Positions 7,175 through 46,848 of a stretch of DNA of 64,000 nt are shown here, piece by piece. Origin of the DNA: Staphylococcus lutrae (lineage in GTDB: Bacteria; Bacillota; Bacilli; Staphylococcales; Staphylococcaceae); the NCBI RefSeq assembly GCF_002101335.1, contig NZ_CP020773.1:1488001-1552000 (forward strand). Direction: 5' to 3'. A program made the position numbers and the translations under genes. Under the pieces are notes generated by a model. The model ran no database searches. It had not been told where the DNA came from and saw only the letters and a list, made by a program, of their open reading frames with translations. The first letter of the stretch is position 1, and every line of letters begins with the position of its first letter.

Positions 7175-7213
7175 TTTTATTAGTTTTATATTTGAAGTAG
7201 GAGGAAACGACGC

Positions 7214-9325: not shown

Positions 9326-9334
9326 GCATTGAGC

Positions 9335-10486: not shown

Positions 10487-10582
10487 AAGGATTGCGTGTA
10501 TGGGGCGGTCATGACGATTTATGATGTTTTTGTTGATATTAAGAAACAAAAATATAGGATTAAGATTAGTGATTTACTTTTG

Positions 10583-10612
10583 TTGACATATAAATAGTGG
10601 TACACTTAAGAT
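10583..10612 (+). promoter_or_regulatory. Promoter candidate for cysK
   Basis: TTGACA (10583-10588) and TAAGAT (10607-10612) with an 18-base spacer, about 45 bases before the cysK start. cysK is normally repressed by CymR in staphylococci; I see no operator that I can assign with confidence. Confidence 0.5.
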
Positions 10613-10667
10613 ATCCGATACAAAAACTATGTGTTATCAAAATATATGAAAAGTGAGGCTGATGATG

Positions 10668-29550: not shown

Positions 29551-31485
29551 ATGCGCTTGTTTCGTTATTTGAAGAAAGTGGTCTATCTTGATATACATAA
29601 AATTGATTTGCAACGTGGATTTCGCCAAGGTCTTTTGATGTTGATTCCTTTACTTTATGGTTGGATTTTTAATGACTTTTCAAGTGCGCTATTAGCGACG
29701 ATTGGAACGTTTGCCAATATTTATGTCTTTAAAGGGCCTTTTACCTCACGTATTCGTTCGGTCGTATTTGCAGCAATGGGACTGGTCGTTACGATGATGA
29801 TTGGTACTTTAACGGCAGGGATTCCTTTACTTTTTGGTATTTTCCTATTGTTTGTTGCAGTCATTCCATATTATGTTTTTAATACCCTTGATATTGTTGG
29901 ACCTGCATCCACATTTTTTATCATTGGTTTTAGTTTATCTAGTGTCATGCCAATAGAGCCTTCTTCCTTTTTAATACGTGGTGCGATAGTGGGTATAGGG
30001 GGAATACTTGCTATTTTGTTTGTATTGATTGCGTCTATTTTAAGCAAAGAAACACCTGAATTTGACGCAGTTTCTAATGAGTTTCGACAATTGCAGCAAA
30101 TGGTACAGCATTTTAATGATCAAGTGAAATTTAATGCATTAACTAAAACGACTGTACAAACGTTAATTGCAACATCAGAGACGTTGAAAGCCTCGCGGGC
30201 ACTGATGAAGAAGAAAACTTTAGCTGTGCAGCGTTTAACGTTGCTTCACCATGCAGCTGAAGGGGTTTATTCTGAATTACTGGAGTTAAATGCGAAAGGT
30301 CATCGCCCAATACCTGCCATTATTCCGGAAATGATGACAGATGTCGTCATACGTGTGACAGATCAAACGCAACAAAAGACGACATGGAAGAAAGCGATAT
30401 CGGTCTCGCCTGAATTTGACACATTGGTGGAGCTGATTTTTAAGATAGATGAAGTGTTGGATAGCCCTCAAGAACAAGTTGAAAAGCATGTACGTATGCA
30501 ATCGCCACAATATTGGAATCGATTACGTTACCACTTAACACCAGAGTCTATGAATTTTATTTCTGCAGCTAAATATACTTTAATCATGGGGGTTGCGATT
30601 TTAGTTGCCTTGTTATTTAATTTTGAGCGTGCGTATTGGATTCCATTGAGTGCGCATACGGTTTTACTCGGTGGAACAACCGTTGCAAGTATTGAGCGTG
30701 CAGGGGCAAGATGGATTGGTACATGCGTGGGCATTGTGATAGTCATTGGCTTTTTATTATTAGAGCCACATACCGCCATGATTATCCTTGCACTTTGTTT
30801 CAGTGGGATGGTCACTGAAACTTTAATCGGTGCGAATTATACACTTGCGATGATTGCGATTACCAGTCAAGTGGTATTACTCGCAGGTTTGGCACAAGGG
30901 CAATTAACTTTAGATATTGCAATTCCACGTTTATTGGATACAACGGTCGGAATCTTAATTGCAGTCATAGGTATTCTCTTGATTGGCAGACGTCTGGCTT
31001 CTAAATATTTGCCAGAGATGATGGCCCAAGTGACACGTATGGAAGCGCAAATTTTTCATACGATTTTTTCCAATACCCCATACGATAATGAGATGTTTAT
31101 CCAACGAGATCGCCTGAAGTTGAAAATACGTATTGAAAATATGGAAGCGATGTATCGTTTCGCATATGGTGAATTATTATCCAATCAAAAGCGGACACAA
31201 TACTTTTATCCTGCTATGTTTATACTCGAACAAATGAGTTTTAAATTATTACAAGCGATGTATGATCAGCAACGGCCGATGATCAGTGAGGAAGAGATGG
31301 GGCAATATTTAGTGACATTTGAAAATATTGCTAAACTATTTGAGAAGGGGCAACGTCAAGAGGCGATTGTGATGCTTCCTGAAATGCCACGTTATGCGCA
31401 ACTACGACGTTTTTTAATGCAACTTCAACAAATTGAGCTGTATGATTATCAAAACAGAAGAAATCCACATTTATTAAAAGATTGA
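29551..31485 (+). CDS. FUSC / aromatic-acid exporter family membrane protein
   Basis: Protein of 644 residues with two clusters of membrane helices (about 20-170 and 340-480), each followed by a cytoplasmic helical domain. This is the layout of the fusaric-acid/aromatic-acid efflux (FUSC, ArAE) family. The substrate is unknown. The ATG at 29551 is only three bases from GGAGG; the TTG two codons later (29557) has better spacing and may be the true start. It sits between the IS and pdxR, alone in its direction. Confidence 0.8.
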   Translation: MRLFRYLKKVVYLDIHKIDLQRGFRQGLLMLIPLLYGWIFNDFSSALLATIGTFANIYVFKGPFTSRIRSVVFAAMGLVVTMMIGTLTAGIPLLFGIFLLFVAVIPYYVFNTLDIVGPASTFFIIGFSLSSVMPIEPSSFLIRGAIVGIGGILAILFVLIASILSKETPEFDAVSNEFRQLQQMVQHFNDQVKFNALTKTTVQTLIATSETLKASRALMKKKTLAVQRLTLLHHAAEGVYSELLELNAKGHRPIPAIIPEMMTDVVIRVTDQTQQKTTWKKAISVSPEFDTLVELIFKIDEVLDSPQEQVEKHVRMQSPQYWNRLRYHLTPESMNFISAAKYTLIMGVAILVALLFNFERAYWIPLSAHTVLLGGTTVASIERAGARWIGTCVGIVIVIGFLLLEPHTAMIILALCFSGMVTETLIGANYTLAMIAITSQVVLLAGLAQGQLTLDIAIPRLLDTTVGILIAVIGILLIGRRLASKYLPEMMAQVTRMEAQIFHTIFSNTPYDNEMFIQRDRLKLKIRIENMEAMYRFAYGELLSNQKRTQYFYPAMFILEQMSFKLLQAMYDQQRPMISEEEMGQYLVTFENIAKLFEKGQRQEAIVMLPEMPRYAQLRRFLMQLQQIELYDYQNRRNPHLLKD

Positions 31486-31540
31486 AACATATCAAATAGG
31501 AGCACGCGGTGTACGACTGGTTATGTCTCCCGCGTGCTTT

Positions 31541-32953
31541 TTATTGGAAATCATTTGAAGTAAAGCAACGAATCAGTTGGGCAATGTGTTGATCAAGTTC
31601 ACATATCGGAATGCCTCCAAATCCTAGCACAAATCGAGGGGGTTGGACTTGCTTGTTGTGATAAAGATAATGAGAAAGTGGTTTCATATCTATTTCAAAG
31701 TGTGTCAGGCGCTCCAAACAAGTTTTTTCACTCCAACCATTTTTTATCGTAATGATAAAGTGCATCCCCGTTTTTTCACCGGAAACGTCAAAAACATGTG
31801 GATAGCGCATCAGTTGTGTGAGAATGATATCCCGTTTTTGACGGTAAATTTTACGCATTCGATTTAAATGCCTTTCAAACTGATTGGTCTCCATAAATCG
31901 TGCCACCATATATTGCGTATGGCGGGGAACGGTCCCCCCTTCGATATGAGTGGTGCGTTGATAGAGTGATAACAGTGGTTTGGGTAACACCGCATAAGCA
32001 ATTCGAATCGTTGGTGAAATCGATTTTGAAAAGGTGCTTACATAAATGACACGACCCGCTTGATCTAAGCTTTGAAGTGCAGGAATGGGCTTACCTTCAT
32101 AGCGGAATTCTGAATCATAATCATCCTCAATGATAAAACGGTGGGGCTGTGCAGTCGCCCATTTTAAAAGGCGCATCCGGTTTTTTAAATGCATGGTCAC
32201 ACCTGTTGGGAATTGATGACTGGGTGTAATGTACACGATATGATGGGATTGATGTGACGTATCTTCAATGACAATGCCCTCTTTTTCGACTGGAATGAAG
32301 TGATAAGGAATATGCTTACGTTTGAGCACTTGATGGACTTGAGGATAAATCGGGTCTTCTAAAATAAACTTTTTCGTGTCGGGCAATAAGTCTGTAATCA
32401 TTGATAATAATTGTTCAGTAGATGAAGCAACGATGACTTGTTCAGGCGTTGACTGTACCCCACGACTGTGAAATAAATAATGACTAATTTGCGTTCTTAA
32501 TGCAAGATCCCCCTGTTTATGACCCGGTTCAATCAGGTGAAATTGTAATTCTTCAAATGCTTCTTTCGCATACTTCCGAAATTGCTCGAAAGGGAAATGA
32601 TGTTGATCAATGGTCCCTAATTTAAACGCGTAAGTTAAATTTGGAAAAGGAGGGTGAACTTGGGAAAGACTTTCCAACTCTACCGATTGCGTAAAAGGAA
32701 GCGTGTCGATATCACTGACGAAAAATCCAGATTTAGCACGACTATAGATATAGCCTTCATCCACCAGTTGTGCGTATGCACTTTCAACGGTCGTTTGACT
32801 GACTGATAAATATTGGCTCAGTTGCCGTTTAGAGGGGAGTTTTTCACCTTCATGCATCTGTCCTTTAATAATACTTTGTTTAATATTTTCATATAACTGA
32901 AGATAAATAGGTTGGGCGAGTGATTTATCAATATGAAACATTAACATTTCCAT
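31541..32953 (-). CDS. pdxR: MocR/GabR-type regulator PdxR
   Basis: Chimeric regulator of 470 residues. A GntR winged helix (about 1-75; KLPSKRQLSQYLSVSQTTVE) is fused to an aminotransferase-like domain that senses pyridoxal phosphate, with the PLP-lysine region STFSKSISPTIRIAY and the DDYDSEFRYEGKP block. It is divergent from pdxST, the normal place of PdxR, which activates them when PLP is low and represses itself. Several in-frame ATGs lie together; I chose 32953, six bases after GGAG. An upstream TTG (32965) or the ATG at 32947 are alternatives. Confidence 0.88.
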   Translation of the reverse strand: MEMLMFHIDKSLAQPIYLQLYENIKQSIIKGQMHEGEKLPSKRQLSQYLSVSQTTVESAYAQLVDEGYIYSRAKSGFFVSDIDTLPFTQSVELESLSQVHPPFPNLTYAFKLGTIDQHHFPFEQFRKYAKEAFEELQFHLIEPGHKQGDLALRTQISHYLFHSRGVQSTPEQVIVASSTEQLLSMITDLLPDTKKFILEDPIYPQVHQVLKRKHIPYHFIPVEKEGIVIEDTSHQSHHIVYITPSHQFPTGVTMHLKNRMRLLKWATAQPHRFIIEDDYDSEFRYEGKPIPALQSLDQAGRVIYVSTFSKSISPTIRIAYAVLPKPLLSLYQRTTHIEGGTVPRHTQYMVARFMETNQFERHLNRMRKIYRQKRDIILTQLMRYPHVFDVSGEKTGMHFIITIKNGWSEKTCLERLTHFEIDMKPLSHYLYHNKQVQPPRFVLGFGGIPICELDQHIAQLIRCFTSNDFQ

Positions 32954-33061
32954 AGGCATCTCCAATCTGACCAGGTTAGTTTTTGTAATTCTGACACTTT
33001 AAGCGGTTCAGATAATAGTATAAGCTACATGTGTAAATAATAAAAGGGAGTGAAAACACCT
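32954..33061. promoter_or_regulatory. pdxR-pdxS divergent control region with candidate PdxR sites
   Basis: ATCTGACC (32965-32972), TTCTGACA (32989-32996) and the inverted GGTTCAGAT (33005-33013) resemble one another and lie where a dimeric MocR regulator would bind. TATAAG/TAGTAT follows for pdxS, and AAAGGGAGTG is its ribosome site. The assignment is inference from position and repetition. Confidence 0.5.
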
Positions 33062-33949
33062 ATGTCAAAACAAATCGGTTCAGAACGTGTTAAACGAGGT
33101 ATGGCAGAAATGCAAAAAGGTGGCGTCATCATGGATGTCGTCAACGCAGAACAAGCCAAAATTGCAGAAGAAGCAGGGGCAGTCGCTGTCATGGCGCTTG
33201 AGCGTGTACCATCAGATATTCGTGCGGCTGGAGGTGTGGCGCGTGCATGTAACCCTTCAATTGTAGAAGAAGTGATGAACGCGGTCTCTATTCCAGTTAT
33301 GGCAAAATGTCGTATTGGTCATATTACAGAAGCAAGAGTATTAGAAGCGATGGGCGTGGACTACATTGACGAATCAGAAGTCCTTACGCCTGCAGATGAA
33401 GTGTTCCATTTGAAGAAAAGCGATTATACAGTTCCGTTTGTATGTGGCTGTCGTAATCTAGGTGAAGCCGCGCGTCGTATTGGCGAAGGTGCTGCAATGT
33501 TACGGACGAAAGGTGAGCCAGGAACAGGAAATATCGTTGAAGCGGTACGTCATATGCGCCAAGTCAATCAAGAAGTGAAGCGCATCACAGTCATGAGTGA
33601 TGATGAATTAATGACTGAAGCGAAAAACCTAGGTGCACCTTATGAGATTTTAAAAGATATTAAAGCACATGGCCGACTACCAGTTGTAAACTTTGCGGCT
33701 GGAGGCGTGGCAACACCACAAGATGCGGCTTTAATGATGGAATTAGGTGCTGACGGCGTTTTCGTTGGGTCAGGAATTTTCAAATCAGAAGACCCTGAAA
33801 TGTTTGCAAAAGCAATTGTTCAAGCGACAACACATTATCAAGATTACAAATTGATCGGTGAATTAGCGAAAAAATTAGGTACGGCAATGAAAGGATTAGA
33901 TATCCAGAAATTGTCATTAGAAGAACGCATGCAAGAGCGTGGTTGGTAA
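33062..33949 (+). CDS. pdxS: Pyridoxal 5'-phosphate synthase, PdxS subunit
   Basis: Makes PLP from ribose 5-phosphate, glyceraldehyde 3-phosphate and ammonia supplied by PdxT. The 295-residue barrel has [13 protein letters not shown], the first catalytic Lys in [10 protein letters not shown], and the second in [12 protein letters not shown]. The start is the ATG at 33062, 12 bases after AAAGGGAG, and it aligns with S. aureus; an in-frame GTG at 33050 lies within the ribosome site. One base separates it from pdxT. Confidence 0.97.
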
Positions 33950-33950
33950 G

Positions 33951-34511
33951 ATGAAAATTGGTGTTTTAGCATTACAAGGTGCAGTTCGTGAACATCTTCG
34001 TCATATTGAATTGGCAGGTCATGAAGGAATTCCTGTAAAAAAAGTAGAACAACTCGAAGAAATTGATGGATTGATTATTCCAGGAGGAGAATCGACGACT
34101 TTGCGCCGTTTAATGAACCTATACGGCTTTAAAGCGGCATTACGTGAATCATCACTCCCGATGTTTGGAACATGTGCAGGTCTCATTGTCCTTGCGAAAG
34201 ATATTGTTGGAGAAGAAGGTTATCTTCAAAAACTAGATATCACCGTAGAGCGAAATTCATTCGGTCGTCAAGTGGATAGTTTTGAAGCTGAACTCGATAT
34301 CAAAGGTATAGACCAACCTATTGAAGGTGTATTTATTCGTGCCCCTCATATCCAATCGGTTGAATCTGCAGTTGAAATACTTGGAGAAATTGATGGAAAA
34401 ATCATCGCTGTACAACAAGGCCGTTATTTAGGTGTCTCTTTCCACCCTGAATTAACAGATGATTATCGTATCACACAATATTTTATTGAGCACGTCATGA
34501 CACACGCATAA
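33951..34511 (+). CDS. pdxT: Pyridoxal 5'-phosphate synthase, PdxT glutaminase subunit
   Basis: Glutamine amidotransferase of 186 residues that feeds ammonia to PdxS. Class I triad is visible: C75 in [10 protein letters not shown], and His and Glu in FHPEL near residue 170. [11 protein letters not shown] is the oxyanion loop. The ATG is directly after the pdxS stop (TAAGATG). It is the last B6 gene; a long hairpin follows and then the CRISPR leader. Confidence 0.97.
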
Positions 34512-34516
34512 AGATA

Positions 34517-34586
34517 AAACATGCCGATGATGTAAGGAATCACGCCACTTCAACATTAGTGATTCAGTACGGAGGCATGTTTTTTT
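34517..34586 (+). terminator. Terminator of pdxST
   Basis: AAACATGCC pairs with GGCATGTTT across an inner AATCAC/GTGATT stem, ending in seven T. It isolates the CRISPR array from pdxST transcription. Confidence 0.85.
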
Positions 34587-34664
34587 GATTACAACCTATA
34601 ATTTATTGTGCACTTTTAAAAATGAGTGGCAATGTGAATGGAATATAGTATAATGTATCTAGAG
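34587..34664 (+). promoter_or_regulatory. CRISPR leader with promoter
   Basis: AT-rich 78 bases before the first repeat. GTGGCA (34626-34631), 17 bases, TATAAT (34649-34654) would start the pre-crRNA at about 34661, right at the first repeat. The leader ends TCTAGAG, comparable in place to the leader-end motif that anchors Cas1-Cas2 in type II-A systems. It lies at the end opposite the decayed repeat, so new spacers should enter here. Confidence 0.7.
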
Positions 34665-35229
34665 GTTTTAGTACTCTGTTATTTTAGGTATAAGTGATAC
34701 TCAGCTTGTGCATCTTCTTTTAATTGTTTAGTTTTAGTACTCTGTTATTTTAGGTATAAGTGATACATTCGTTATCATTCGGAAAGATAAAACCGAGTTT
34801 TAGTACTCTGTTATTTTAGGTATAAGTGATACAAAAAAGTTTTATCAATCCGCAGCTTAGTTGTTTTAGTACTCTGTTATTTTAGGTATAAGTGATACAC
34901 AAAGTGTATGCACTGTGCTATACTTAATGTTTTAGTACTCTGTTATTTTAGGTATAAGTGATACAGGAGTTAGAGAATACTTTCGACAACTGGCGTTTTA
35001 GTACTCTGTTATTTTAGGTATAAGTGATACACTCCACGCACCTGAGGGGCTTTCGTCTCTGTTTTAGTACTCTGTTATTTTAGGTATAAGTGATACATAG
35101 TGATGTTGGCGAGCCTAAATTAATTTGTTTTAGTACTCTGTTATTTTAGGTATAAGTGATACAATAATCAAAACTCGATAAAAAAACTTTAAAGTTTTAG
35201 TACTCTTTTATTTTAGGTATAAATGATAC
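34665..35229 (+). CRISPR. Type II-A CRISPR array: 9 repeats, 8 spacers
   Basis: The 36-base repeat starts GTTTTAGTACTCTG and ends GGTATAAGTGATAC, close to the S. aureus Cas9 repeat. Repeats begin at 34665, 34731, 34797, 34863, 34929, 34995, 35061, 35127 and 35194. Repeats 1-8 are identical. Repeat 9 has two changes (G to T at position 14, G to A at position 30), marking the old end. Spacers 1-7 are 30 bases and spacer 8 is 31. All spacers differ. Repeat orientation means crRNAs are read from the + strand, as are tracrRNA and the cas genes. Confidence 0.98.
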
Positions 35230-35236
35230 ATGAATG

Positions 35237-35273
35237 GTTTTAATATAATGACGATTTGAACCGTGAGTGATAC
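35237..35273 (+). repeat. Possible decayed tenth CRISPR repeat
   Basis: 37 bases that start GTTTTA and end AGTGATAC, matching both ends of the repeat but not the middle, seven bases after repeat 9. It may be a worn-out repeat left after a spacer deletion, or coincidence. Confidence 0.3.
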
Positions 35274-35304
35274 GTTGAGGGGCTTCCTTAATTATCAAAA
35301 TCGG

Positions 35305-35349
35305 TTTTTGAACTATGTTGTTTCTGATGTGTGAAACAATGTTCAAAAA
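35305..35349. repeat. Long inverted repeat before the tracrRNA promoter
   Basis: TTTTTGAAC (35305-35313) and TTGTTTC (35318-35324) pair with GAAACAA (35333-35339) and GTTCAAAAA (35341-35349): 16 pairs with small bulges around an 8-base loop. It has no T run on the + strand and ends five bases before the tracrRNA -35 box. It could be a regulator site or an array 3'-end structure. Confidence 0.6.
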
Positions 35350-35353
35350 AGGC

Positions 35354-35381
35354 TTGCCATACACTTAATATGTGGTACAAT
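35354..35381 (+). promoter_or_regulatory. tracrRNA promoter
   Basis: TTGCCA (35354-35359), 16-base spacer, extended -10 TGGTACAAT (TACAAT at 35376-35381). Start expected near 35388. Confidence 0.75.
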
Positions 35382-35387
35382 ATAATT

Positions 35388-35483
35388 GTGAGTACTGAAG
35401 TGTACTTATACCTAAAATGACAGAACCTACTAAAACAAGACAATATGTCGTGTTTATCCCGCTAATCTATTAGTGGGATTTTT
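35388..35483 (+). ncRNA. tracrRNA
   Basis: About 95 bases. The anti-repeat (35400-35436) pairs with the CRISPR repeat: 8 bp at ACTAAAAC, an internal bulge, then 18 bp including one G-U pair. It is followed by a small stem GAC-AATAT-GTC and a terminator stem CCCGCTAAT/ATTAGTGGG with five T. The layout equals that of S. aureus Cas9 tracrRNA, and the stems show paired changes against it. It is transcribed toward cas9 and ends about 50 bases before it. Confidence 0.92.
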
Positions 35484-35533
35484 CTATATCAAATGTGAGC
35501 GGAGTAGGTTTGGATGAAATGGGAGGGACATGT

Positions 35534-38500
35534 ATGCGTAATAGTTATATATTGGGTCTGGATATCGGTATTACTTCTGTTGGTTATGGCATCATTGATC
35601 GTGTCACAAGAGAGGTTATCGATGCAGGTGTCCGTTTATTTCCAGAGGCCAATGTTGAAAATAATGAAGGACGAAGAAGCAAAAGAGGGGCGCGTCGTTT
35701 AAAAAGAAGACGAATTCATCGCTTAAATCGAATCAAACAATTGCTTAAAAATGCTGGATTGTTAGAAGGCGACGTACTTCCTAAAAGTACGAATCCTTAT
35801 GAGATTAGAGTGAGAGGTTTGCGTTCACCATTGACTAAAGATGAATTGGTAATTGCATTGTTACATATCGCTAAAAGAAGAGGTATTCACAACATCAATA
35901 TTGTAGGTGATGATGAAGAAACGGATAGTACTTTATCTACAACAGCGCAGTTAAAGAAAAATGAGAAAGCATTAAAAGGTCAATTTGTATGTGAACTTCA
36001 ATTAGACAGATTAGCGAACGCGCATCAAGTTCGAGGAGAGAAAAATAGATTTAAAACGGAAGATATTGTTAAAGAGGTACGTGCATTACTCCAACAACAA
36101 CAAAATTTTCACAATATTGACAATTCATTCGTTGAGCAATACATAGCGTTACTTGAAAGTCGACGTACTTATTATGAAGGTCCGGGTGAAGGGAGCCCGT
36201 ATGGATGGGATGGAGATATTAAGAAATGGTACGAAATGTTGATGGGGTATTGTACATATTTCCCAGAAGAATTGAGAAGTGTGAAGTACGCTTACACTGC
36301 AGATTTATTCAATGCGTTGAATGATTTGAATAACTTAGTGATTACACGAGATGACAATTCAAAATTAACTTATGCTGAAAAATATCACATCATAGAGAAT
36401 GTGTTTAAGCAAAAAAAGGTGCCGACATTAAAACAAATTGCTAAAGAAATCGGTGTCAATGAAAGCGATATCAAAGGTTATCGAATCAATAAATCAGAAA
36501 AGCCGCTGTTCACATCGTTTAAGTTGTATCATGATTTAAAGTCGGTGTTCAGTGATCCAACGAAGCTTGAAGATATCGATTTACTTGATCGTATTGCTGT
36601 CGTTTTAACGATGTATCAAGATGCAGAGAGTATGAAAGCGGCATTGAATACATTTCCAGAAGTGTTTTCAGAAGCAGAAAAAGAGAAACTGAGTGCGTTA
36701 ACGGGTTATGCCGGCACACATCGATTATCGTTAAAGTGTATGAATTTGTTAATTCCTGATTTATGGCAAACGTCATTAAATCAAATGGAATTGTTTGTGA
36801 AGCTCAACCTCAAACCTCAAAAACTAGATTTGTCTCAATGTCATCAAATTCCAACGCAACTTGTCGATGAATTTATTTTATCTCCTGTTGTTAAACGTGC
36901 ATTTACACAATCCATCAAGGTTATCAACGCAATTATCCAAAAGTATGGCTTGCCTGATGATATTATTATAGAGTTAGCAAGAGAAAAAAATAGTGCGGAT
37001 AAACGAAAGTTTTTAAATCAATTACAGAAAAAGAATGAAAAGGCGCGACATGAAATCAATACATTAGTCGCGCAGTATGGTCAACCGAATGCCAAGCGTT
37101 TAGTAGAGAAAATTACGCTTCATCAACAACAAGAAGGGAAATGTTTATATTCGCTTAAAGACATTCCTTTAGAACAATTGCTCAAGCAACCTTATTTATA
37201 CGAAGTGGATCATATCATTCCGCGTTCCGTCTCGTTTGATAATTCTATGCAGAATAAAGTTTTAGTATTGGCTGAAGAAAACGCCAAAAAAGGGAACCAA
37301 ACGCCATACCAATATTTGAATTCGAGAGAGGCTTCGATGACTTATCCGGAATTCAAACAACATATTTTAAACTTGAGTAAGGCTAAAGATCGAATCTCTA
37401 AAAAGAAAAGAAATTATTTATTAGAAGAAAGAGATATTAATAAATTTGATGTTCAAAAAGACTTTATCAATAGAAACTTAGTGGATACAAGATATGCGAC
37501 ACGTGAGTTAGCTTCATTGTTAAAAGCATATTTTAAAACGCATGAATTACCTGTAAAGGTGAAAACGATTAATGGTGGATTTACGCATTATTTAAGAAAA
37601 GTGTGGAAGTTTGATAAAGATCGAAACAAAGGATATAAACATCATGCTGAGGATGCTTTGATTATTGCAAATGCTGATTTTCTATTTAAAAATCAAACTT
37701 TAAATAAAATCGAAGCGATACTGAATGAACCTGGACGTGAAGTGGAATCTGATACTGTCAAAGTGCAGAGTGAAGATAATTATCAAGACTTGTTTGAAAA
37801 TACGAAAAAAGCGTTTGCTATTAAAAACTTTAAAGACTTTAAGTTCTCTCATCGCGTCGATCAGAAACCTAATCGACAATTAGTGAATGACACCCTTTAT
37901 TCGACACGCGAAGTGAATGAAGATTTGTACGTCGTTCAAACATTAAAAGATATATATAGTAAAGACAATAAAGATGTTAAACGCTTGTTTGATAAACAAC
38001 CAGAAAAGTTTTTAATGTTTCAACATGACCCGGAAACATTTAAGAAATTTGAACTCGCAATGAAACAATATGCAGAAGAGAAAAATCCATTAGCGCGTTA
38101 TTATGAAGAACAAGGGTATATCACAAAATATGCCAAAAAAGGAGATGGCCCACCTGTTAAAAGTTTGAAGTATATCGGAAAAAAAGTTGGAAAGCATTTA
38201 GATGTAACGGGTGATTACGAGGATTCGAATCGAAAGTTAGTTAAACTGTCGTTGAAGTCGTTTCGCTTTGATATATACCATACAGATAAAGGATATAAAA
38301 TGGTTCCTATTACTTATTTAGATGTACAAAAGAAAGAAAAATATTATTATATCCCAACAGAAAAGTATGAGGCGCTTAAACAGGAAAAAGGCATCAATCA
38401 AAACGCTCAATTTATAGGATCGTTTTATTATAATGACCTCATTGAATTTGATGGAGAACTTTATCGTGTTATCGGAATCAATAATGGAGATAAAAACTTA

Positions 38501-38698
38501 GTTGAATTGGATATGGTGGATATCAGATATAAAGAATACTGTGAGCTCAATAGTATTACGACGACACCAAGGATTGTTAAAACCATTAGTCCTAAGACGC
38601 AATCCATTGAAAAATATACGACAGATATTTTAGGAAATTTGTATAAGGCACAACCTGGCAAAAAGCCACAATTCATTTTTAATAAGGATGAAGACTAA
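35534..38698 (+). CDS. cas9: Compact type II-A Cas9 nuclease (SaCas9-like)
   Basis: RNA-guided DNA nuclease of 1054 residues (S. aureus Cas9 has 1053), similar along its whole length. RuvC-I has D10 in LGLDIGITSVGYG; the Arg-rich bridge helix is at about 41-73; REC spans about 74-428. RuvC-II has E480 (IIIELAREKN); HNH has D559-H560 and N583; RuvC-III has H704 and D707 in HHAEDALIIAN. WED and PAM-interacting domains follow. N983, N984, E991 and R1013 match SaCas9 PAM residues N985, N986, E993 and R1015, but R991 is Leu (L989). The ATG follows GGGAGG; an upstream GTG (35495) lacks a site. The stop overlaps cas1. Confidence 0.98.
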   Translation: MRNSYILGLDIGITSVGYGIIDRVTREVIDAGVRLFPEANVENNEGRRSKRGARRLKRRRIHRLNRIKQLLKNAGLLEGDVLPKSTNPYEIRVRGLRSPLTKDELVIALLHIAKRRGIHNINIVGDDEETDSTLSTTAQLKKNEKALKGQFVCELQLDRLANAHQVRGEKNRFKTEDIVKEVRALLQQQQNFHNIDNSFVEQYIALLESRRTYYEGPGEGSPYGWDGDIKKWYEMLMGYCTYFPEELRSVKYAYTADLFNALNDLNNLVITRDDNSKLTYAEKYHIIENVFKQKKVPTLKQIAKEIGVNESDIKGYRINKSEKPLFTSFKLYHDLKSVFSDPTKLEDIDLLDRIAVVLTMYQDAESMKAALNTFPEVFSEAEKEKLSALTGYAGTHRLSLKCMNLLIPDLWQTSLNQMELFVKLNLKPQKLDLSQCHQIPTQLVDEFILSPVVKRAFTQSIKVINAIIQKYGLPDDIIIELAREKNSADKRKFLNQLQKKNEKARHEINTLVAQYGQPNAKRLVEKITLHQQQEGKCLYSLKDIPLEQLLKQPYLYEVDHIIPRSVSFDNSMQNKVLVLAEENAKKGNQTPYQYLNSREASMTYPEFKQHILNLSKAKDRISKKKRNYLLEERDINKFDVQKDFINRNLVDTRYATRELASLLKAYFKTHELPVKVKTINGGFTHYLRKVWKFDKDRNKGYKHHAEDALIIANADFLFKNQTLNKIEAILNEPGREVESDTVKVQSEDNYQDLFENTKKAFAIKNFKDFKFSHRVDQKPNRQLVNDTLYSTREVNEDLYVVQTLKDIYSKDNKDVKRLFDKQPEKFLMFQHDPETFKKFELAMKQYAEEKNPLARYYEEQGYITKYAKKGDGPPVKSLKYIGKKVGKHLDVTGDYEDSNRKLVKLSLKSFRFDIYHTDKGYKMVPITYLDVQKKEKYYYIPTEKYEALKQEKGINQNAQFIGSFYYNDLIEFDGELYRVIGINNGDKNLVELDMVDIRYKEYCELNSITTTPRIVKTISPKTQSIEKYTTDILGNLYKAQPGKKPQFIFNKDED

Positions 38699-39600
38699 TG
38701 GCATGGAGAATTGTATATGTAGCAGAGGTGAATCGACTTTCCCTTAACCTAAACAGTCTTAAAATTGTAAAAGGAGATGACGAATATAAAATTCCTTTAA
38801 ATGATATTTTTGCAATCGTGATAGAAGATTTAACTGTTTCAATTACGGCACGTTTATTAGTTGAGCTCTCAGATTATAATATCCTTGTTATCTTTTGTAA
38901 TCAAAAACATTTACCAGAATGTGTGATGCAGCCTGTGTCTGGCCATTATAGGCAGTATAACCAAACCCGTGCACAACTTTCTTGGGATCATGCGAGAAAA
39001 GAAGAATTATGGAAATGGATTGTGAAGAAAAAAATCAACAATCAAATAGAATGCATGAAACATTGTCAAATTGATAATGAAAGAATTGAAAAGATGTATG
39101 AATTGTATCGCTCTGTACAAATTTTTGATAAAAACAATATTGAAGGGCAAGCAGCAAAATATTATTTTAATAGTTTTTTTACGAATTTCAACCGAGATAA
39201 TGAGGATTTGCTTGAAAATGCAGTCTTAAACTATGGTTATGCTATTTTAAATGCTGCGATAGGAAGAACCTTAGTTGCAAAAGGTTTAATCCCTTCATTA
39301 GGCATACATCATATCGGTGGGCGTAATCATTTTAATCTTGCCTCTGATTTGATTGAACCTTTTCGACCATTAGTTGATTTGTACTTAATGAAATATCCGC
39401 CTGAATCGTTTATGACGAAAGAATATCGTGTCAAGTTAGTGAATCTTTTACATGCAAGGGTTGAGATTGATGGGAAGATGCAAACGGTCATAAGAGCTAT
39501 TGAATTGATGATTCAATCTGTCATTGATTATTTTCGAGAAGGACAAACATCCTTATTAATGTTTCCAAATCTTGCTAAATACGCTTTTTATGAGTTATAG
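38698..39600 (+). CDS. cas1: CRISPR integrase Cas1 (type II-A)
   Basis: Integrase subunit that inserts new spacers with Cas2. It has 300 residues. Metal-binding residues E149 (DKNNIEGQAAKYYF), H205 (LGIHHIGGRNHFNL) and E220 (SDLIEPFRP) are all present. The start is coupled to the cas9 stop (TAATG, one shared base) and the end overlaps cas2 by 11 bases, so the operon is translated as a chain. No damage seen. Confidence 0.97.
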   Translation: MAWRIVYVAEVNRLSLNLNSLKIVKGDDEYKIPLNDIFAIVIEDLTVSITARLLVELSDYNILVIFCNQKHLPECVMQPVSGHYRQYNQTRAQLSWDHARKEELWKWIVKKKINNQIECMKHCQIDNERIEKMYELYRSVQIFDKNNIEGQAAKYYFNSFFTNFNRDNEDLLENAVLNYGYAILNAAIGRTLVAKGLIPSLGIHHIGGRNHFNLASDLIEPFRPLVDLYLMKYPPESFMTKEYRVKLVNLLHARVEIDGKMQTVIRAIELMIQSVIDYFREGQTSLLMFPNLAKYAFYEL

Positions 39601-39913
39601 ATTTATGCGAGTCATCTTAATGTTTGACCTACCTGTTGAAACGAAGCAACAAAGAAGGATATATAGTAAGTTTAGGAAACGGCTACTCGAAAATGGATTT
39701 CTAATGATGCAATATTCAATCTATGTCAAAAGTGTCATCAATCGTGATGCAGCGACACTAAGTGTCAATCAGATTAAACAGTTTTTACCAAGAGAAGGCC
39801 ATGTCCGTGCATTAATGATTACAGAGAAGCAATATGAAAAAATGCAAATTTTACTTGGAGAAGAAGATAAAAATAGTGTGATTTTAGGGGAAAATCGAAC
39901 AATATTATTTTAG
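39590..39913 (+). CDS. cas2: CRISPR adaptation protein Cas2
   Basis: Structural partner of Cas1, 107 residues. It begins MSYRFMRVILMFDLPVETKQ, with D13 at the usual place in the ferredoxin-like fold. I chose the ATG at 39590, which gives the MSYR start typical of type II-A Cas2 and overlaps cas1 by 11 bases. An upstream ATG at 39572 would add six residues. csn2 starts 12 bases after the stop. Confidence 0.96.
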   Translation: MSYRFMRVILMFDLPVETKQQRRIYSKFRKRLLENGFLMMQYSIYVKSVINRDAATLSVNQIKQFLPREGHVRALMITEKQYEKMQILLGEEDKNSVILGENRTILF

Positions 39914-39925
39914 AGGTTATTTGAA

Positions 39926-40921
39926 ATGGAGAAAATAGTGTGGGAATTAAAAAGCGAAGGGCTTCATTCTATTGAATTGAACATTGAAAACTATACATCT
40001 ATATATAATGAGTTTGATACAAGAGAAGAAGATATTTTACAAACCATTTATGGCTATTTTCAAAAACGGGCATCTAATAAAGCGTATGTCACGATAATTG
40101 ACAAGGCAGATGGAGAGGTCATTCCCTCTCAACGCTATCAATGTTGGTTGGTTAATCATGAATTTATTGAAAAAGAATTTGAACTTGCTCAAACCAGTTT
40201 ATTGAACAAAAAAATTGTTCGACAACTCAAAGAAAATTATGAAATAGAAAGCTACTTGCATACGATGAATGTATTACTTGAAGATTTAGTTCAATTCGTT
40301 GATCATGGGTTGCCCATTAAACCTAAACCTTTTGATTACAAAGCATTTTCAAAGCATCTACAGTTCAAGTTTGATGATCATGTTGATTATTATAGATTGA
40401 TTAATCGGCTAGAAAGGATGCTGCCACTCATTGTTGAAGAAATGGAACAAATTTCAAATCATAGAACCTTGCTTATTTACACTTATCCAGAGGCGAATTT
40501 AAGTCCGAAAGAACAAATTCAGTTCAGAAAATGTTTGGAAAGCTTAAATATACCGGTCATCACATTAACGGGGTCAGCGCATTTTCTTTCTAGAAATCTG
40601 ATGGGAATGAATTATATTAGAAGAGATCGACAATTGATTAATATGCGGTGGTTAAATCAATTGGTTTGGGATGCACCGATGAATTACGAAATGGATGAAA
40701 TTATGGTGAGCTTAAAGCGTTTCATTCATTTGTATCAGGACAAGTTAGAGATGACCCCCTTGATTTCAAATCATCGCTTAGCCGATATCATGTTATTTGA
40801 CCCGATTGATATTTATGTTGGATTCTCATTTATGAGATATGCGGAACAAGCTTTTACTACAGATATGGATTGGGGTGTATTGCCAGAACCGGTGAGTCGC
40901 TATATGCAGCACTTGTTATAA
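39926..40921 (+). CDS. csn2: Long-form Csn2 adaptation protein
   Basis: Fourth cas gene, which marks the locus as type II-A. Csn2 forms a tetrameric ring that binds DNA ends during spacer capture. At 331 residues it is far longer than the classical form (about 220) and closer to the long Csn2 variants of about 320-350 residues. LLIYTYPEANLSPKEQIQF and LNIPVITLTGSAHFLSRNL resemble the P-loop-like core lacking a clear ATP site. Assigned mainly from position and length class; sequence identity to classical Csn2 is weak by eye. Confidence 0.85.
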   Translation: MEKIVWELKSEGLHSIELNIENYTSIYNEFDTREEDILQTIYGYFQKRASNKAYVTIIDKADGEVIPSQRYQCWLVNHEFIEKEFELAQTSLLNKKIVRQLKENYEIESYLHTMNVLLEDLVQFVDHGLPIKPKPFDYKAFSKHLQFKFDDHVDYYRLINRLERMLPLIVEEMEQISNHRTLLIYTYPEANLSPKEQIQFRKCLESLNIPVITLTGSAHFLSRNLMGMNYIRRDRQLINMRWLNQLVWDAPMNYEMDEIMVSLKRFIHLYQDKLEMTPLISNHRLADIMLFDPIDIYVGFSFMRYAEQAFTTDMDWGVLPEPVSRYMQHLL

Positions 40922-40940
40922 ATGGATGAGAAGATGATAA

Positions 40941-40984
40941 AAAAAGGCACAGCATTCATTGCTTACGTGAATGTTGTGCCTTTT
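40941..40984. terminator. Two-way terminator between csn2 and nupC
   Basis: AAAAGGCACAGCATTCA pairs with TGAATGTTGTGCCTTTT. It has A/T runs on both sides, so it can end the cas operon on + and nupC on -. Confidence 0.88.
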
Positions 40985-41003
40985 CTAATATGAATATCAT
41001 GAA

Positions 41004-42209
41004 TTACAAGAAAAATCCTGCAATTGTCGCAGAAATGAATGATACGAGTGTTGCACCAAACAATAATTTCAAGCCGAAACGTGCGACGATATCTCCCTTT
41101 TCATCATGTAATGATTTAATTGCACCTGAGATGATGCCGATTGAGCTAAAGTTTGCAAATGAAACTAAGAATACAGAGACAACACCTAAAGAACGCTCTG
41201 TTAAGCCATGGACTTTACCCAGTTCAGTCATGGCTACGAATTCATTGGACAATAACTTTGTCGCCATAATCGATCCAGCATCCACGGCATCGTTCCAAGG
41301 AATCCCTGTTAAAAACGCTAATGGCGCAAAGATAAAACCAATTAATGTTTGGAAGTTCCAATCCAATGTACCACCAGAAACGAGGCTGATGATTCCCCCA
41401 ATGAGCCCATTTAACAATGAAATTAAAGCGATATAACCAATCAACATCGCCCCTACAATCACTGCGACTTTAAAACCATCTAAAATATACTCACCTAACA
41501 TTTCAAAGAAAGACTGCTGTTTCTTTTCTGTATCAATCAGAAGCTTATCATCTTCCTCATTGACTTTATAAGGATTGATAATCGACGCGATGATGAAGCC
41601 GCCAAATAAGTTCAATACAACGGCTGTAACAACATACTTAGGATCAATAAGTGTGAAGTAAGCGCCAATGATGGAGGCTGATACAGTTGACATTGCAGAT
41701 GCAGTTAATGTATACAAGCGTTGTTTTGTAATATAAGGCAATTGTTTTTTTAACGAAATAAACACTTCAGATTGCCCTAAAATTGCAGCTGCAACCGCAT
41801 TGTACGACTCTAAGCGACCCATACCATTAATTTTTGAGATTAAAAAGCCTAGAACGTTAATGATCAATGGTAAAATCTTCGTGTATTGTAAAATACCGAT
41901 GAGTGCTGAAATGAATACAATCGGTAATAATACACTTAAGAAGAATGACATCGCTCCGTCATTCAGTAATCCACCGAAGACGAAATTGACACCGACTGCC
42001 GCTTGTTTCAGTAAATATTCAAAGCCTTTTGCGATACCACCGACAATTTTAATACCAATATCTGTTTTGAGTAGGAAAAAGGCTAAAATCAACTGAATAA
42101 CAAGCATCAGTCCGATGTAATGCCAACGCACGTTCTTTTTGTCTGAACTTGCAACGAGTGCGAGGGCTAAGAAAACAACAATCCCGATGACCCCAATTAA
42201 AATATGCAT
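41004..42209 (-). CDS. nupC: Concentrative nucleoside transporter NupC
   Basis: Nucleoside-cation symporter of 401 residues with about ten membrane segments. The CNT family blocks are present: GILQYTKILPLIINVLG, GMGRLESYNAVAAAILGQSE with the substrate-binding Gly/Gln region, and FANFSSIGIISGAI near the C-terminus. The ATG at 42209 is preceded on the minus strand by AGAGGTGGAA. It is convergent with the cas operon and divergent from ctsR. In S. aureus it directly follows pdxT, so the CRISPR locus is an insertion between these two genes. Confidence 0.95.
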   Translation of the reverse strand: MHILIGVIGIVVFLALALVASSDKKNVRWHYIGLMLVIQLILAFFLLKTDIGIKIVGGIAKGFEYLLKQAAVGVNFVFGGLLNDGAMSFFLSVLLPIVFISALIGILQYTKILPLIINVLGFLISKINGMGRLESYNAVAAAILGQSEVFISLKKQLPYITKQRLYTLTASAMSTVSASIIGAYFTLIDPKYVVTAVVLNLFGGFIIASIINPYKVNEEDDKLLIDTEKKQQSFFEMLGEYILDGFKVAVIVGAMLIGYIALISLLNGLIGGIISLVSGGTLDWNFQTLIGFIFAPLAFLTGIPWNDAVDAGSIMATKLLSNEFVAMTELGKVHGLTERSLGVVSVFLVSFANFSSIGIISGAIKSLHDEKGDIVARFGLKLLFGATLVSFISATIAGFFL

Positions 42210-42310
42210 GTGAGTTCCACCTCTGTTTTTCTAATAAATTTTCACTAAGACTATCATACAACAAAAATGTAAGCAGTAACATAACTATTTTGGGAATTTA
42301 AAATCAAATT

Positions 42311-42360
42311 GGTTGAAAAAGGTCAAAGTCAGCTCTATAATATAGTCAAAGATGGTCAAA
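42311..42360 (+). promoter_or_regulatory. ctsR promoter flanked by two CtsR operators
   Basis: TTGAAA (42313-42318), 17 bases, TATAAT (42336-42341). Two heptad repeats of the CtsR type lie over it: GGTTGAA-AAA-GGTCAAA (42311-42327) and AGTCAAA-GAT-GGTCAAA (42344-42360). Binding at both would cover the -35 and the start site, giving strong autorepression lifted by heat. Confidence 0.9.
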
Positions 42361-42372
42361 AGGGGTGATACC

Positions 42373-42834
42373 ATGCATAATATGTCTGACATCATAGAAC
42401 AATACATCAAGCAATTGTTTGAAGAAGCGCAAGACGATGTTGTGGAAATTCAACGTGCACACATTGCACAGCGATTTGATTGTGTGCCTTCTCAGTTGAA
42501 TTACGTCATCAAAACACGCTTTACGAATGAACATGGTTATGAAATAGAAAGCAAACGTGGTGGCGGTGGCTACATTCGAATTACTAAAGTGGAGACGAAA
42601 GACCAAAACAATTATATTAAACGATTAATCGGCTTGATTGGCCCTGCCCTTTCGCAACAACAAGCTTTATATATTATTGATGGTTTGTTAGACAATGGTT
42701 TAGTCACGGAGAGAGAAGCCAAGATGATTGCAGCAGTAGTGGATAGAGAAACGTTGAAAATGGATGTAGCTTCAAGAGATATCATCCGAGCCAATATTTT
42801 AAAACGGTTACTTCCTGTCATTAATTATTACTAG
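42373..42834 (+). CDS. ctsR: Class III heat-shock repressor CtsR
   Basis: Repressor of clp genes, 153 residues. The winged helix includes [20 protein letters not shown] and the DNA-contacting Arg-Gly wing [12 protein letters not shown]. The C-terminal half holds the dimer region recognised by McsB. I chose the ATG at 42373 ([10 protein letters not shown]), preceded by GGGGTG and equal to the S. aureus start; an ATG at 42352 lies inside the operator. It is the first gene of ctsR-mcsA-mcsB-clpC. Confidence 0.96.
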
Positions 42835-42848
42835 AAGGGTGATGTGCG

Positions 42849-43379
42849 ATGAAAATCGATAAACGAGTACTTGAGAAGCAACACAAAGACCAACATGAAC
42901 ATTTGAACGTTCGTATGTATGATCAAACGGGTGACGAGTCATCCGATGCACAGTGGCATGAAGGCGATGATGTTGAAGGCACTTTTGTGATTCAACAAAT
43001 TTTACAACATTTGGCAGCAAAACATGGGCTGAGTGTCGATCAAGTGGTTTATCGAGAACAAAAACGTTGCCCGAATTGCCAAATGACGTTAAAAGATATT
43101 GCACATGTCGGCAAGTTCGGATGTCATCAATGTTATCAGACGTTTAAAGAAGATGTCTATGATATCGTAAGACGCGTACAAGGTGGGCATATCGAACATG
43201 CGGGTAAATGTCCGAAATCAGCGCAACATCAACGTGCAATCAAAAAGCAGCTCGAAGCCAAACGTGCGCGCCTTGATCAGTTAGTGGCGCAACAAGCATT
43301 TGAAGAAGCGGCTGTCGTGCGTGATGAGATTCAAGCGCTTGAGCGACAAAGTGAGGTGTCCCGACAAGATGGTGAATAA
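42849..43379 (+). CDS. mcsA: McsA, arginine-kinase adaptor, lacking the N-terminal zinc module
   Basis: Adaptor that activates McsB and aids CtsR control. It has 176 residues. One zinc module is complete (CPNC at 74-77, CHQC at 92-95), followed by the UVR domain (about 132-168; [15 protein letters not shown]). McsA normally has a second CxxC pair in its first 35 residues; here that part is hydrophilic and has no Cys. Just upstream in another frame, an ATG at 42842 would read Met-Cys-Asp-Glu-Asn-Arg then stop. This recalls the usual start and may be its remnant. It overlaps mcsB by 11 bases. Confidence 0.9.
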
Positions 43380-44373
43380 CTTGGATCAATACATGAGCCA
43401 TTGGATGAAAAAGGTCAATGCACAACCTGTGATTATGTCTTCACGTATTCGCTTAGCGCGCAATCTTGAAAACTATGTGCATCCACTGATGTTTTCATCT
43501 GAAGAAGAGGGACATCGCGTGATTAACGAAGTACAAGATGTGTTGACGGATTTGAAGGTATTGCGCTTAGATGAACTCGATCAATTGAGCAAGTATAAGC
43601 TCGTGGCGAAACATCTAATTAGTCCGGAGCTAACGAAACAACCGGCTGCTGCGGTGTTGCTGAGTGAGGATGAGTCGATTAGTGTCATGGTGAATGAAGA
43701 AGATCATATTCGAATCCAAGCGATGGGTAATGATTTGTCTTTAAACGAATTGTATCAAAAAGCGTCAGAAATTGATGATACGTTAGATCAGGCAGTGCAA
43801 GTGAGTTATGATGAACAACTCGGTTACTTAACGACGTGTCCAACAAATGTAGGAACAGGGATGCGTGCGAGCGTGATGTTGCATTTGCCGGGGTTATCCA
43901 TTATGAAGCGAATGAATCGCATTGCGCAGACGATCAACCGTTTCGGCTTTACGATTCGTGGGATTTACGGTGAGGGCTCACAAGTTTATGGTCACATTTA
44001 TCAAGTTTCGAATCAAATGACTTTAGGAAAAAGTGAGCAAGAAATTATTGATGCATTGACGGAATTAGTCAATCAAATCATTCATGAAGAGCTCGCATTG
44101 CGCGAACGACTCAATGCGCATAATCATATGGAAACATTGAATAGAATTTATCGTTCATTGGGTATATTAAAGTATGGTCGCCTCATTTCAGTGGAAGAAG
44201 CATCATATCGCTTAAGTGATATTAAGTTAGGCGTAGATTTAGGAATATTAGATATGGAGAATTTTCGATTTAATGAATTAATGGTCGCGATACAGTCACC
44301 ATTTTTAATAGATGAGACGGATGAGCAATCAATAGAAGCCAAACGCGCAGAGATTTTAAGAACTTATATATAA
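43369..44373 (+). CDS. mcsB: Protein-arginine kinase McsB
   Basis: Phosphorylates arginines, marking proteins for ClpC-ClpP and inactivating CtsR. It has 334 residues with the guanidino-kinase fold: [16 protein letters not shown] (nucleotide-binding Arg), [11 protein letters not shown], the catalytic-Cys loop [15 protein letters not shown], and [12 protein letters not shown]. The start is the ATG at 43369 after GTGAGGTG, overlapping mcsA; a GTG directly after is possible. Confidence 0.96.
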
Positions 44374-44388
44374 TTAGGAGGTTGGCAT

Positions 44389-46848
44389 ATGTTATTTGGA
44401 AGATTAACTGAACGTGCGCAACGTGTGTTAGCGCATGCACAAGAAGAAGCAATTCGCTTGAACCATTCCAATATTGGGACGGAACATTTACTACTCGGTT
44501 TAATGAAAGAACCTGAAGGCATTGCTGCGAAAGTATTGGAAAGTTTTAACATTACTGAAGAGAAAGTCATTGAAGAAGTCGAAAAATTAATTGGACACGG
44601 TCAACAGCAAATGGGGGCGCTACACTATACGCCACGTGCGAAAAAAGTAATCGAATTGTCTATGGATGAAGCACGTAAGTTACAACACAATTTTGTAGGG
44701 ACAGAACACATTTTACTTGGATTGATCCGTGAAAATGAAGGTGTGGCTGCCCGTGTATTCGCGAACTTAGACCTTAATATTACTAAAGCACGCGCGCAAG
44801 TAGTCAAAGCTTTAGGCAGTCCTGAAATGTCTAATAAAAATACGCAAGGTGCGAAAGCGAATAACACACCGACTTTAGATGGATTAGCCCGTGATTTAAC
44901 GGTCATTGCTAAAGATGGCACATTAGATCCTGTCGTAGGACGTAATGCGGAGATTACACGTGTGATTGAAGTGTTGAGTCGTCGTACGAAAAACAACCCT
45001 GTATTGATTGGTGAACCGGGTGTAGGGAAAACAGCCATTGCAGAAGGGCTTGCCCAAGCGATTGTTAACAATGAAGTACCTGAAACACTTAAAGGGAAAC
45101 GTGTAATGTCATTAGATATGGGAACAGTTGTTGCAGGGACAAAATATCGCGGTGAATTTGAAGAGCGTTTGAAAAAAGTGATGGAAGAAATTCATCAAGC
45201 TGGAAATGTGATTTTGTTCATTGACGAATTGCATACCCTTATTGGTGCTGGTGGTGCGGAAGGTGCGATTGATGCGTCTAATATTTTAAAACCTGCATTG
45301 GCACGTGGTGAATTGCAATGTATTGGTGCCACAACGTTAGATGAGTATCGGAAACACATTGAAAAAGACGCAGCCCTTGAGCGTCGTTTCCAACCTGTAC
45401 AAGTTGCTGAGCCGAGCGTAGCGGATACGATTGAAATTTTGAAAGGATTGCGCGATCGTTATGAGGCGCATCATAGAATCAATATTTCAGATGAAGCCAT
45501 TGTTGCTGCAGCTAAGCTCAGCCAGCGTTATGTACAAGACCGCTTCTTACCGGATAAAGCGATTGACTTAATCGATGAAGCGAGTTCAAAAGTACGTTTG
45601 AAAAGTCATACAACACCAACGAATTTAAAAGAAATTGAACAGCAAATCGAACAAGTGAAGAAAGAAAAAGATGCGGCAGTCCATGCTCAAGAGTTTGAAA
45701 ATGCCGCAAACTTAAGAGATAAACAAACGAAACTTGAGAAACAATATGAAGAAGCTAAAAACGAATGGAAAAACAATCAAGGTGGCGAGCATACAACGTT
45801 AGTCGCTGAAGATATTGCAGAAGTCATTGCCGGTTGGACTGGAATTCCGTTGACACGCTTGAATGAAACAGAGTCGGATCGCCTGCTCAAATTAGAAGAG
45901 ACATTGCACGAACGTGTCATTGGTCAAAATGATGCTGTCATTGCGGTTTCTAAAGCAGTTCGTCGTGCACGTGCGGGATTAAAAGATCCAAAACGTCCAA
46001 TTGGTAGCTTTATCTTCTTAGGACCTACAGGGGTCGGTAAAACAGAGCTTGCGCGCGCTTTAGCAGAAGCGATGTTTGGAGAAGAAGACGCAATGATACG
46101 TGTGGATATGAGTGAATTCATGGAGAAACATGCGGTCAGTCGACTCGTCGGTGCCCCTCCAGGATATGTGGGTCACGATGATGGTGGGCAATTAACTGAA
46201 AAAGTTCGCCGTAAACCGTACTCTGTCATTTTATTTGATGAGATTGAAAAAGCACATCCAGATGTCTTTAACATTCTATTACAAGTACTCGATGATGGAC
46301 ATTTAACAGATACGAAAGGACGTCGAGTAGACTTTAGAAATACAGTGATTATTATGACATCTAACGTCGGTGCACAAGAACTCCAAGATCAACGCTTTGC
46401 CGGATTCGGTGGTAGTTCGGAAGGACAAGATTACGAAACAATTCGCAAAACGATGATGAAAGAATTGAAAAATGCGTTCCGTCCTGAATTTTTAAACCGT
46501 GTTGATGATACGATTGTCTTCCATAAATTAAATAAAGAAGAATTGAAAGAAATTGTTACGATGATGGTCGGTAAGTTAACACAACGCTTGTCTGAACAAA
46601 ATATTAATATCAATGTGACAGAAGCCGCAAAAGATAAAATTGCTGAAGAAGGCTATGATCCAGAATATGGTGCGCGTCCATTGATTCGTGCCATCCAAAA
46701 AACCGTGGAAGATAACTTGAGTGAGTTGATTTTAGAAGGTAAAGAATTGGAAGGTAAAAATGTCACTGTAGATTATGATGGTGAATCATTCCAGTATGAC
46801 ATTCATGAACGTGAAGCAGATGAAGATAAAGCAGTCACAGAAGCATAA
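44389..46848 (+). CDS. clpC: ClpC ATPase, chaperone subunit of ClpCP
   Basis: Hexameric AAA+ unfoldase of 819 residues. Two N-terminal Clp repeats (1-145) bind adaptors. D1 has GEPGVGKT and [16 protein letters not shown] middle coiled domain with a UVR-like stretch is at about 410-475. D2 has [32 protein letters not shown] and the sensor-2 region [16 protein letters not shown] precedes the ATG, 15 bases after mcsB. It is the last gene of the CtsR operon. Confidence 0.97.

Follow-up and report, generated by a model that had tools for sequence, protein, structure and literature searches.

A complete type II-A CRISPR-Cas locus with a small Cas9, most likely gained between pdxT and nupC in Staphylococcus lutrae

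A stretch of 64,000 nucleotides (nt) of the Staphylococcus lutrae chromosome (hereafter the window, whose positions serve as coordinates throughout) carries, between the genes pdxT and nupC, a CRISPR-Cas locus (clustered regularly interspaced short palindromic repeats and associated genes) with a small Cas9. Leader, repeat-spacer array, trans-activating CRISPR RNA (tracrRNA), cas9, cas1, cas2 and csn2 follow one another on the + strand; all of these parts were found and the genes are open, in agreement with the original prediction of a complete locus on one strand. It is considered highly probable that this is a complete small-Cas9 type II-A locus, working as its family does and gained at the pdxT-nupC junction, while its expression, its cutting and acquisition activities, the way in which it was gained and a protospacer adjacent motif (PAM) that extends beyond NNGA are what we infer from the sequence. 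Comparisons were made across a survey set of 84 genomes of the genus, which includes the 2.53 Mb source genome of S. lutrae (G000). The parts of the locus are as follows.

34587..34664, + strand: leader, with a -10-like TATAAT at 34649-34654 (promoter-like score 10/12) and TCTAGAG abutting repeat 1
34665..35229, + strand: CRISPR array of nine 36-nt repeats and eight spacers
35354..35381, + strand: promoter-like site of the tracrRNA, TTGCCA-16-TACAAT (10/12)
35388..35485, + strand: tracrRNA with a presumed 5' end, comprising a 5' hairpin (35388-35409), anti-repeat (35404-35436), nexus and terminator (35456-35479) followed by a T run
35534..38698, + strand: cas9, 1054 amino acids (aa), SaCas9 type, from an ATG start (the mechanical open reading frame (ORF) begins at GTG 35495); TIGR01865, E-value 7.6e-203
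38698..39600, + strand: cas1, type II; TIGR03639, E-value 3e-87; E149, H205 and E220 present
39605..39913, + strand: cas2; TIGR01573, E-value 1e-22
39926..40921, + strand: csn2, long form, 331 aa; PADLOC Csn2 PDLC02122, E-value 7.6e-135

The Cas9 protein matches the Pfam domains HNH_4 and Cas9_RuvC besides TIGR01865 and aligns with the SaCas9 structures (5axw, 5czz) over residues 1-1048 with 1352 bits. By this full-length homology and its compact size it is an ortholog of the Staphylococcus aureus enzyme, as had been proposed. Residues D10, E480, H560, N583, H704 and D707 of Cas9, like the three listed for Cas1, are those which we take to be catalytic from SaCas9 and type II Cas1, and the expectation that the catalytic residues of both proteins are in place was thus borne out. 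The closest named relative among the best 120 of 698 matches, drawn from at most 8000 candidates, is P0019 of Staphylococcus pseudintermedius (1055 aa, 82% identical); the Cas9 proteins of Staphylococcus hyicus, Staphylococcus chromogenes and Staphylococcus agnetis-type II-A loci form the sister clade. The 90%-identity cluster of the S. lutrae Cas9 comprises two sequences, which means that the protein database searched contains a nearer copy.

The assignment of csn2 calls for more care, as the protein found no match among the NCBIfam and Pfam models or the PDB sequences, which counts against it. In addition to the PADLOC match, a protein search returned 16 relatives besides the protein itself, of which the eight named ones all come from Staphylococcus; P0015, which carries a Cas1 domain and was matched over 57% only, was excluded when these were aligned. 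An AlphaFold2 model has a mean predicted local distance difference test score of 87.5. With csn2 beside cas9, cas1 and cas2, the system is by its gene content of subtype II-A. The cas9 and cas1 genes overlap by one base and are followed by gaps of 4 nt (cas1-cas2) and 12 nt (cas2-csn2); the cas genes therefore likely form one operon. The type II-A system of Streptococcus pyogenes has cas9-cas1-cas2-csn2 with a tracrRNA, its leader and array lying downstream of csn2. The S. lutrae locus differs from it in the small Cas9, the long Csn2 and the position of leader and array upstream of the tracrRNA.

Eight of the nine repeats are identical and the ninth has 2 mismatches, and seven spacers measure 30 nt and one 31 nt. 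A search of the source genome for the repeat at up to 3 mismatches gave 9 matches, all in the array, and none for the reversed control. The sequence CTAGAG stands directly 5' of the first repeat in 19 of 24 arrays of at least two repeats from 22 loci, those of G007, G024, G054, G065 and L007 being without it. The border GAG/GTTT is described for II-A leader Groups 1 and 2 in excerpts of PMC5382924; the TCTAGAG/GTTTT border of S. lutrae agrees with it but lacks the longer motifs ATTTGAG and CTRCGAG. Beyond the last repeat lie fossil units that the original prediction did not mention.

35238..35273, + strand: decayed repeat 1, start uncertain; 14 of its last 20 nt agree with the repeat (28/1000 shuffles as good)
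35274..35303, + strand: fossil spacer of exactly 30 nt between the two decayed repeats
35304..35339, + strand: decayed repeat 2, 22/36 (3/1000 shuffles as good)

The resemblance of decayed repeat 2 is concentrated in its first 20 nt (16/20; 0/1000 shuffles) and first 24 nt (17/24; 4/1000), and for the last 14 nt of the repeat nothing above chance was seen in the post-array stretch (521/1000 shuffles as good). The array was thus probably once longer, extending to the tracrRNA promoter. An array upstream of cas9 and in the same direction occurs in 9 of 22 other loci, two of the nine having arrays on both sides; among these layouts, that of G036, a locus of the S. hyicus/S. chromogenes/S. agnetis type, resembles S. 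lutrae in that tracrRNA and cas9 follow the array; its cas9 stands elsewhere in the chromosome. On a tree of 24 Cas9 proteins, 14 of them with a layout label, the layout orders require 4 changes where the minimum is 3, and 0/200 label shuffles did as well. In G070 (L136, G070:C1:837001-857000) a five-repeat array with its own CTAGAG border lies upstream of cas9 and opposite to the cas genes.

The tracrRNA was identified in 22 of the 23 small-Cas9 loci searched, the exception being G043. In S. lutrae the anti-repeat over 35404-35424 (21 nt) is 95% complementary to the repeat, and repeat, linker and tracrRNA together fold at -52.4 kcal/mol (z -9.9). In an alignment of 20 of the 22 tracrRNAs (G064 and Salinicoccus left out), 95.7% of the cells in the nexus and terminator helices are paired, and 8 of 14 pairs are altered on both sides in some sequence. 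The pairing values and the covariation score were reached by 0/500 shuffles, but the count of additional pair types is unremarkable (224/500 shuffles reach the native number). Judged from this alignment, the helices are kept through paired changes in the relatives. Five loci (L132, L133, L143, L004 and L001) have their tracrRNA downstream of the cas genes, which suggests that array and tracrRNA change position relative to these genes.

A second feature of these RNAs is a perfect stem of at least 5 pairs immediately ahead of the anti-repeat or overlapping its start, present in 21 of 22 tracrRNAs (Salinicoccus excepted) at a constant place with different letters. In 16 of the 22 loci at most 10/200 shuffles scored as high (6/200 in S. 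lutrae), and in the other six 13-85/200 did. The native arms average a score of 18.4 against 12.2 for random pairing between loci, and none of 2000 random pairings was as high, a comparison biased toward native arms, since the search selects the top-scoring stem and the native hairpin sets where it is split. Several observations speak against a hairpin: only 10 of 22 native ones outscore all swaps in which the right arm is exchanged for a different one, the free energy reaches z <= -2 in only 7 of 22 (-1.5 in S. lutrae), and a DNA dyad would give the identical signal. It is therefore put forward tentatively, as a possibility that we consider clearly short of probable, that tracrRNAs of the SaCas9 family start with a fixed-position, variable-letter hairpin that could gate pairing with the CRISPR RNA (crRNA) or mark the transcript for maturation. 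A limited literature search turned up no such tracrRNA 5' element, and its occurrence at a fixed position across the family may be new.

The place of the locus is defined by its neighbours and the folds at its borders.

33939..34511, + strand: pdxT, left neighbour, ORF with a true start probably at ATG 33951; its orthologue adjoins nupC in 84/84 genomes
34512..34590, + strand: terminator-like hairpin 3' of pdxT, -25.2 kcal/mol, z -4.7, 0/200 shuffles as good
40937..40989, strand not assigned: terminator-like inverted repeat between csn2 and nupC, with arms of 22 nt that are 86% complementary, folding on both strands
41004..42209, - strand: nupC, right neighbour, ORF; its orthologue adjoins pdxT in 84/84 genomes

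The pdxT and nupC matches are adjacent on one contig in all 84 genomes. Measured between match coordinates, the gap has a median of 177 bases and reaches 6498 in S. lutrae; elsewhere it ranges from 45 bases to more than 3 kb, the next largest being 3395. It exceeds 1 kb in 15 of the 84 genomes, S. lutrae included. With more than 1 kb of other sequence in the 14 others, the gap (loci L110, L111, L113, L117 and L124-L127) resembles a site of frequent DNA uptake. Among the near relatives, G037 has a gap of 80 nt, while in G019, G022, G051 and G068 the gap is filled by 0.7-1.6 kb of other DNA, the long gaps having been examined at their ends only. By manual sorting of the genome matches, small-type cas9 genes or pieces are present in 25 of the 84 genomes and large-type ones in 10, both types occurring together in three (S. 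lutrae, G065 and G068). None of the 24 other small-type carriers has the gene between pdxT and nupC, which makes S. lutrae 1 in 84 and argues against the same locus standing at this place in all staphylococci. Given this and the variable gap, the most likely history is a gain by the S. lutrae lineage at this often-changing spot. The original view of an island gained cleanly is thus probably right as regards the gain; its cleanness is not supported, the intergenic sequence differing between lineages. The guanine-cytosine (GC) content is 0.33-0.34 in the cas genes, 0.39 in pdxT, 0.38 in nupC and 0.385 in window positions 28001-64000.

The targets of the spacers were sought by comparing all eight, joined as one query, with the 84 genomes (E <=0.05). 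Something was returned in 54 genomes, the own one included, mostly short stretches and some across the joins, and of nine loci retrieved from other genomes only two contained a spacer at up to 5 mismatches. Spacer 3 agrees with G057 at 29/30 positions, flanked by TTGAAG, in an ORF of unassigned function next to genes for holin and endolysin. For spacer 5 the match is in G022, 26/30 with the flank AAGATT, within a phage-type RNA-ligase ORF. The chance expectations per spacer for 84 genomes of random sequence with 36% GC are 3e-7 and 0.001, respectively, and by these alignments spacers 3 and 5 match prophage genes of other staphylococci. A blastn search with 34600-35500 (E <=10) returned 53 phage records, 40 of them examined, and 10 plasmid records, with no credible spacer target; the staphylococcal plasmid matches are lone repeat-like units. 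Such units lie near 9012 in L169 (Mammaliicoccus sciuri pWHA07) and near 9001 in L170 (a Staphylococcus simulans plasmid), and no such Cas9 was found there by tblastn at E 1e-100. IMG/VR was scanned for exact copies of the 19-20 nt at the 3' end of each of spacers 1-7, which gave nothing for spacers 2-7. Seven contigs retrieved with spacer 1 matched only 21-23 of its 30 letters and were discarded as not credible targets. Apart from the array, the search for self-targeting in the source genome gave one 23-nt stretch at E 0.04.

Both protospacers adjoin NNGA. For SpsCas9 of S. pseudintermedius (WP_104052030, 1055 aa) a PAM of NNGR is reported, and the places numbered 986 and 991 in SaCas9 are linked to PAM positions 5 and 6, in excerpts of PMC8811835. 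From its species and length, P0019 is probably this published enzyme. SpsCas9 is likewise of the SaCas9 type and its NNGR fits both NNGA targets; P0019 differs from the S. lutrae protein in 18% of residues, including PAM-reading places 986 and 991. At places 985, 986, 991, 993 and 1015 (SaCas9 numbering) S. lutrae has N, N, L, E and R and P0019 has N, H, R, E and R. A PAM of NNGR is accordingly predicted for the S. lutrae Cas9. SaCas9 itself, with a full-length match and catalytic residues alike, has R991 where S. lutrae has L, and PAM positions 5 and 6 are therefore probably read less strictly than by SaCas9.

On the reading preferred here, Cas1, Cas2 and Csn2 would, with Cas9, insert phage-derived spacers at the CTAGAG/GTTTT border of leader and repeat; the array transcript would pair with the tracrRNA and then be cleaved by the host RNase III, and the guided Cas9 would cut phage DNA beside an NNGR-type PAM. 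A number of observations weigh against this reading. Six of the eight spacers have no credible target in the phage, plasmid, IMG/VR (spacers 1-7) and 84-genome searches, the match of spacer 5 carries 4 mismatches, and the PAM is based on two protospacers only. Promoter-like sites are no commoner than chance (29 against 30.2 in shuffles), the leader and tracrRNA promoters being among the seven best. The terminators originally proposed at both borders are upheld by folding, the pdxT hairpin and the fold over 40930-40995 (z -6.6 on the + strand, -5.5 on the - strand) each beating 200/200 shuffles, but a simple terminator scan, with 3 sites against 3.0 in shuffles, lists neither. As to the gain, the GC difference is slight and common among defence genes. 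The search for transposon or recombinase scars proposed earlier came out empty: no repeat was present at the insert ends among the 20 of 39 direct families and 25 of 46 inverted pairs examined, and no recombinase was evident by eye among the ORFs of 30000-45000. No plasmid record with the S. lutrae Cas9 was found by tblastn of 72,556 records at the strict limit of E 1e-100, nor did a mobile element, a scar or a donor of the locus come to light.

A rival reading is a locus that is ancestral at pdxT-nupC and was lost or replaced in the other genomes, with no gain by the S. lutrae lineage. The occurrence of small-type cas9 in 25 of 84 genomes, with one system decayed or broken in three of them (small cas9 fragments in G068), the array-upstream order common to related Cas9s and the origin, by name, of the 82% relative from the same species group would all suit such a history. 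Against this, cas9 is absent from this place in all 83 other genomes, among them those that nupC and pdxT identity marks as near relatives, one of these with the 80-nt gap, and the other 24 small-cas9 genomes carry it at other places, so that we regard an ancestral locus as unlikely. A little less likely again is a locus intact on paper yet silent or non-functional, a recent acquisition heading for decay, as the decayed last array units and the stop-ridden small-type cas9 fragments of G068 might suggest; eight identical repeats, four open genes, the conserved catalytic residues and the prophage targets argue for the contrary.

The fossil units also invite comparison with tracr-L, the natural single guide of S. 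pyogenes described in excerpts of PMC11417352, in that the decayed repeat and the 30-nt spacer might be a built-in guide by which Cas9 represses its own promoter. A repeat-like sequence does follow a 30-nt guide-like stretch upstream of the tracrRNA and on the same strand. The arrangement is not common to the aligned relatives (by eye), however, and the candidate was rejected because the window contains no further match of at least 10 nt to the fossil spacer's 3' end, the three 9-nt matches of that end all lying outside the locus; a guide of this type is accordingly given hardly any probability.

The preferred reading, a complete locus gained in the S. lutrae lineage, gains context from a second type II-A locus in the source genome, at approximately G000:C1:588-595 kb and with a large Cas9, which was absent from the original prediction.

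L049 (G000:C1:584000-602000), - strand: second system, with array 4032-4525, csn2 4654-5502, cas2 5499-5816, cas1 5833-6708, and Cas9 pieces 6698-10024 and 9972-10712

Its array has seven exact repeats and one decayed, and six of its seven spacers, searched against the 84 genomes at E <=0.001, gave no match outside the array. A frameshift breaks the large Cas9 into two overlapping ORFs (246 and 1108 aa), and the frame is open, at 1309-1352 aa, in all nine other carrier genomes. By blastn with stretches taken from these genomes, both flanks are matched in G068 and G011, the oxidoreductase flank only in G022, G019 and G037, and the flank with sugar-metabolism genes only in G030; G062 and G049 match only array or cas sequence, and the G065 stretch is a different locus. 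The flank matches in relatives and the open frames elsewhere suggest that the second system was inherited at a fixed site and that only S. lutrae has it broken. Because nine consecutive A stand close to the break, the frameshift may be an assembly error. G068 (L145, G068:C1:1744001-1762000) shows the reverse of S. lutrae, with a small-type cas9 at another place, fragmented with many stops, and an open large Cas9.

CRISPR systems are reported in 238 of 493 S. pseudintermedius isolates, type II with cas9-cas1-cas2 being the commoner, in excerpts of PMC10624692. As far as can be told, the closest cousin of the S. lutrae enzyme is already available as a clone with a measured PAM. The locus nevertheless contributes a compact Cas9 with an open gene and a PAM predicted to be relaxed; among the best 120 of 698 matches, the nearest relative of this Cas9 beyond its own 90%-identity cluster is 82% identical. 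The 5' hairpin of the tracrRNA, if functional, would bear on the making of guides in the widely used SaCas9 family. A compact Cas9 arriving where an inherited type II-A Cas9 is frameshifted would make the replacement of one Cas9 system by another testable within a small species group.

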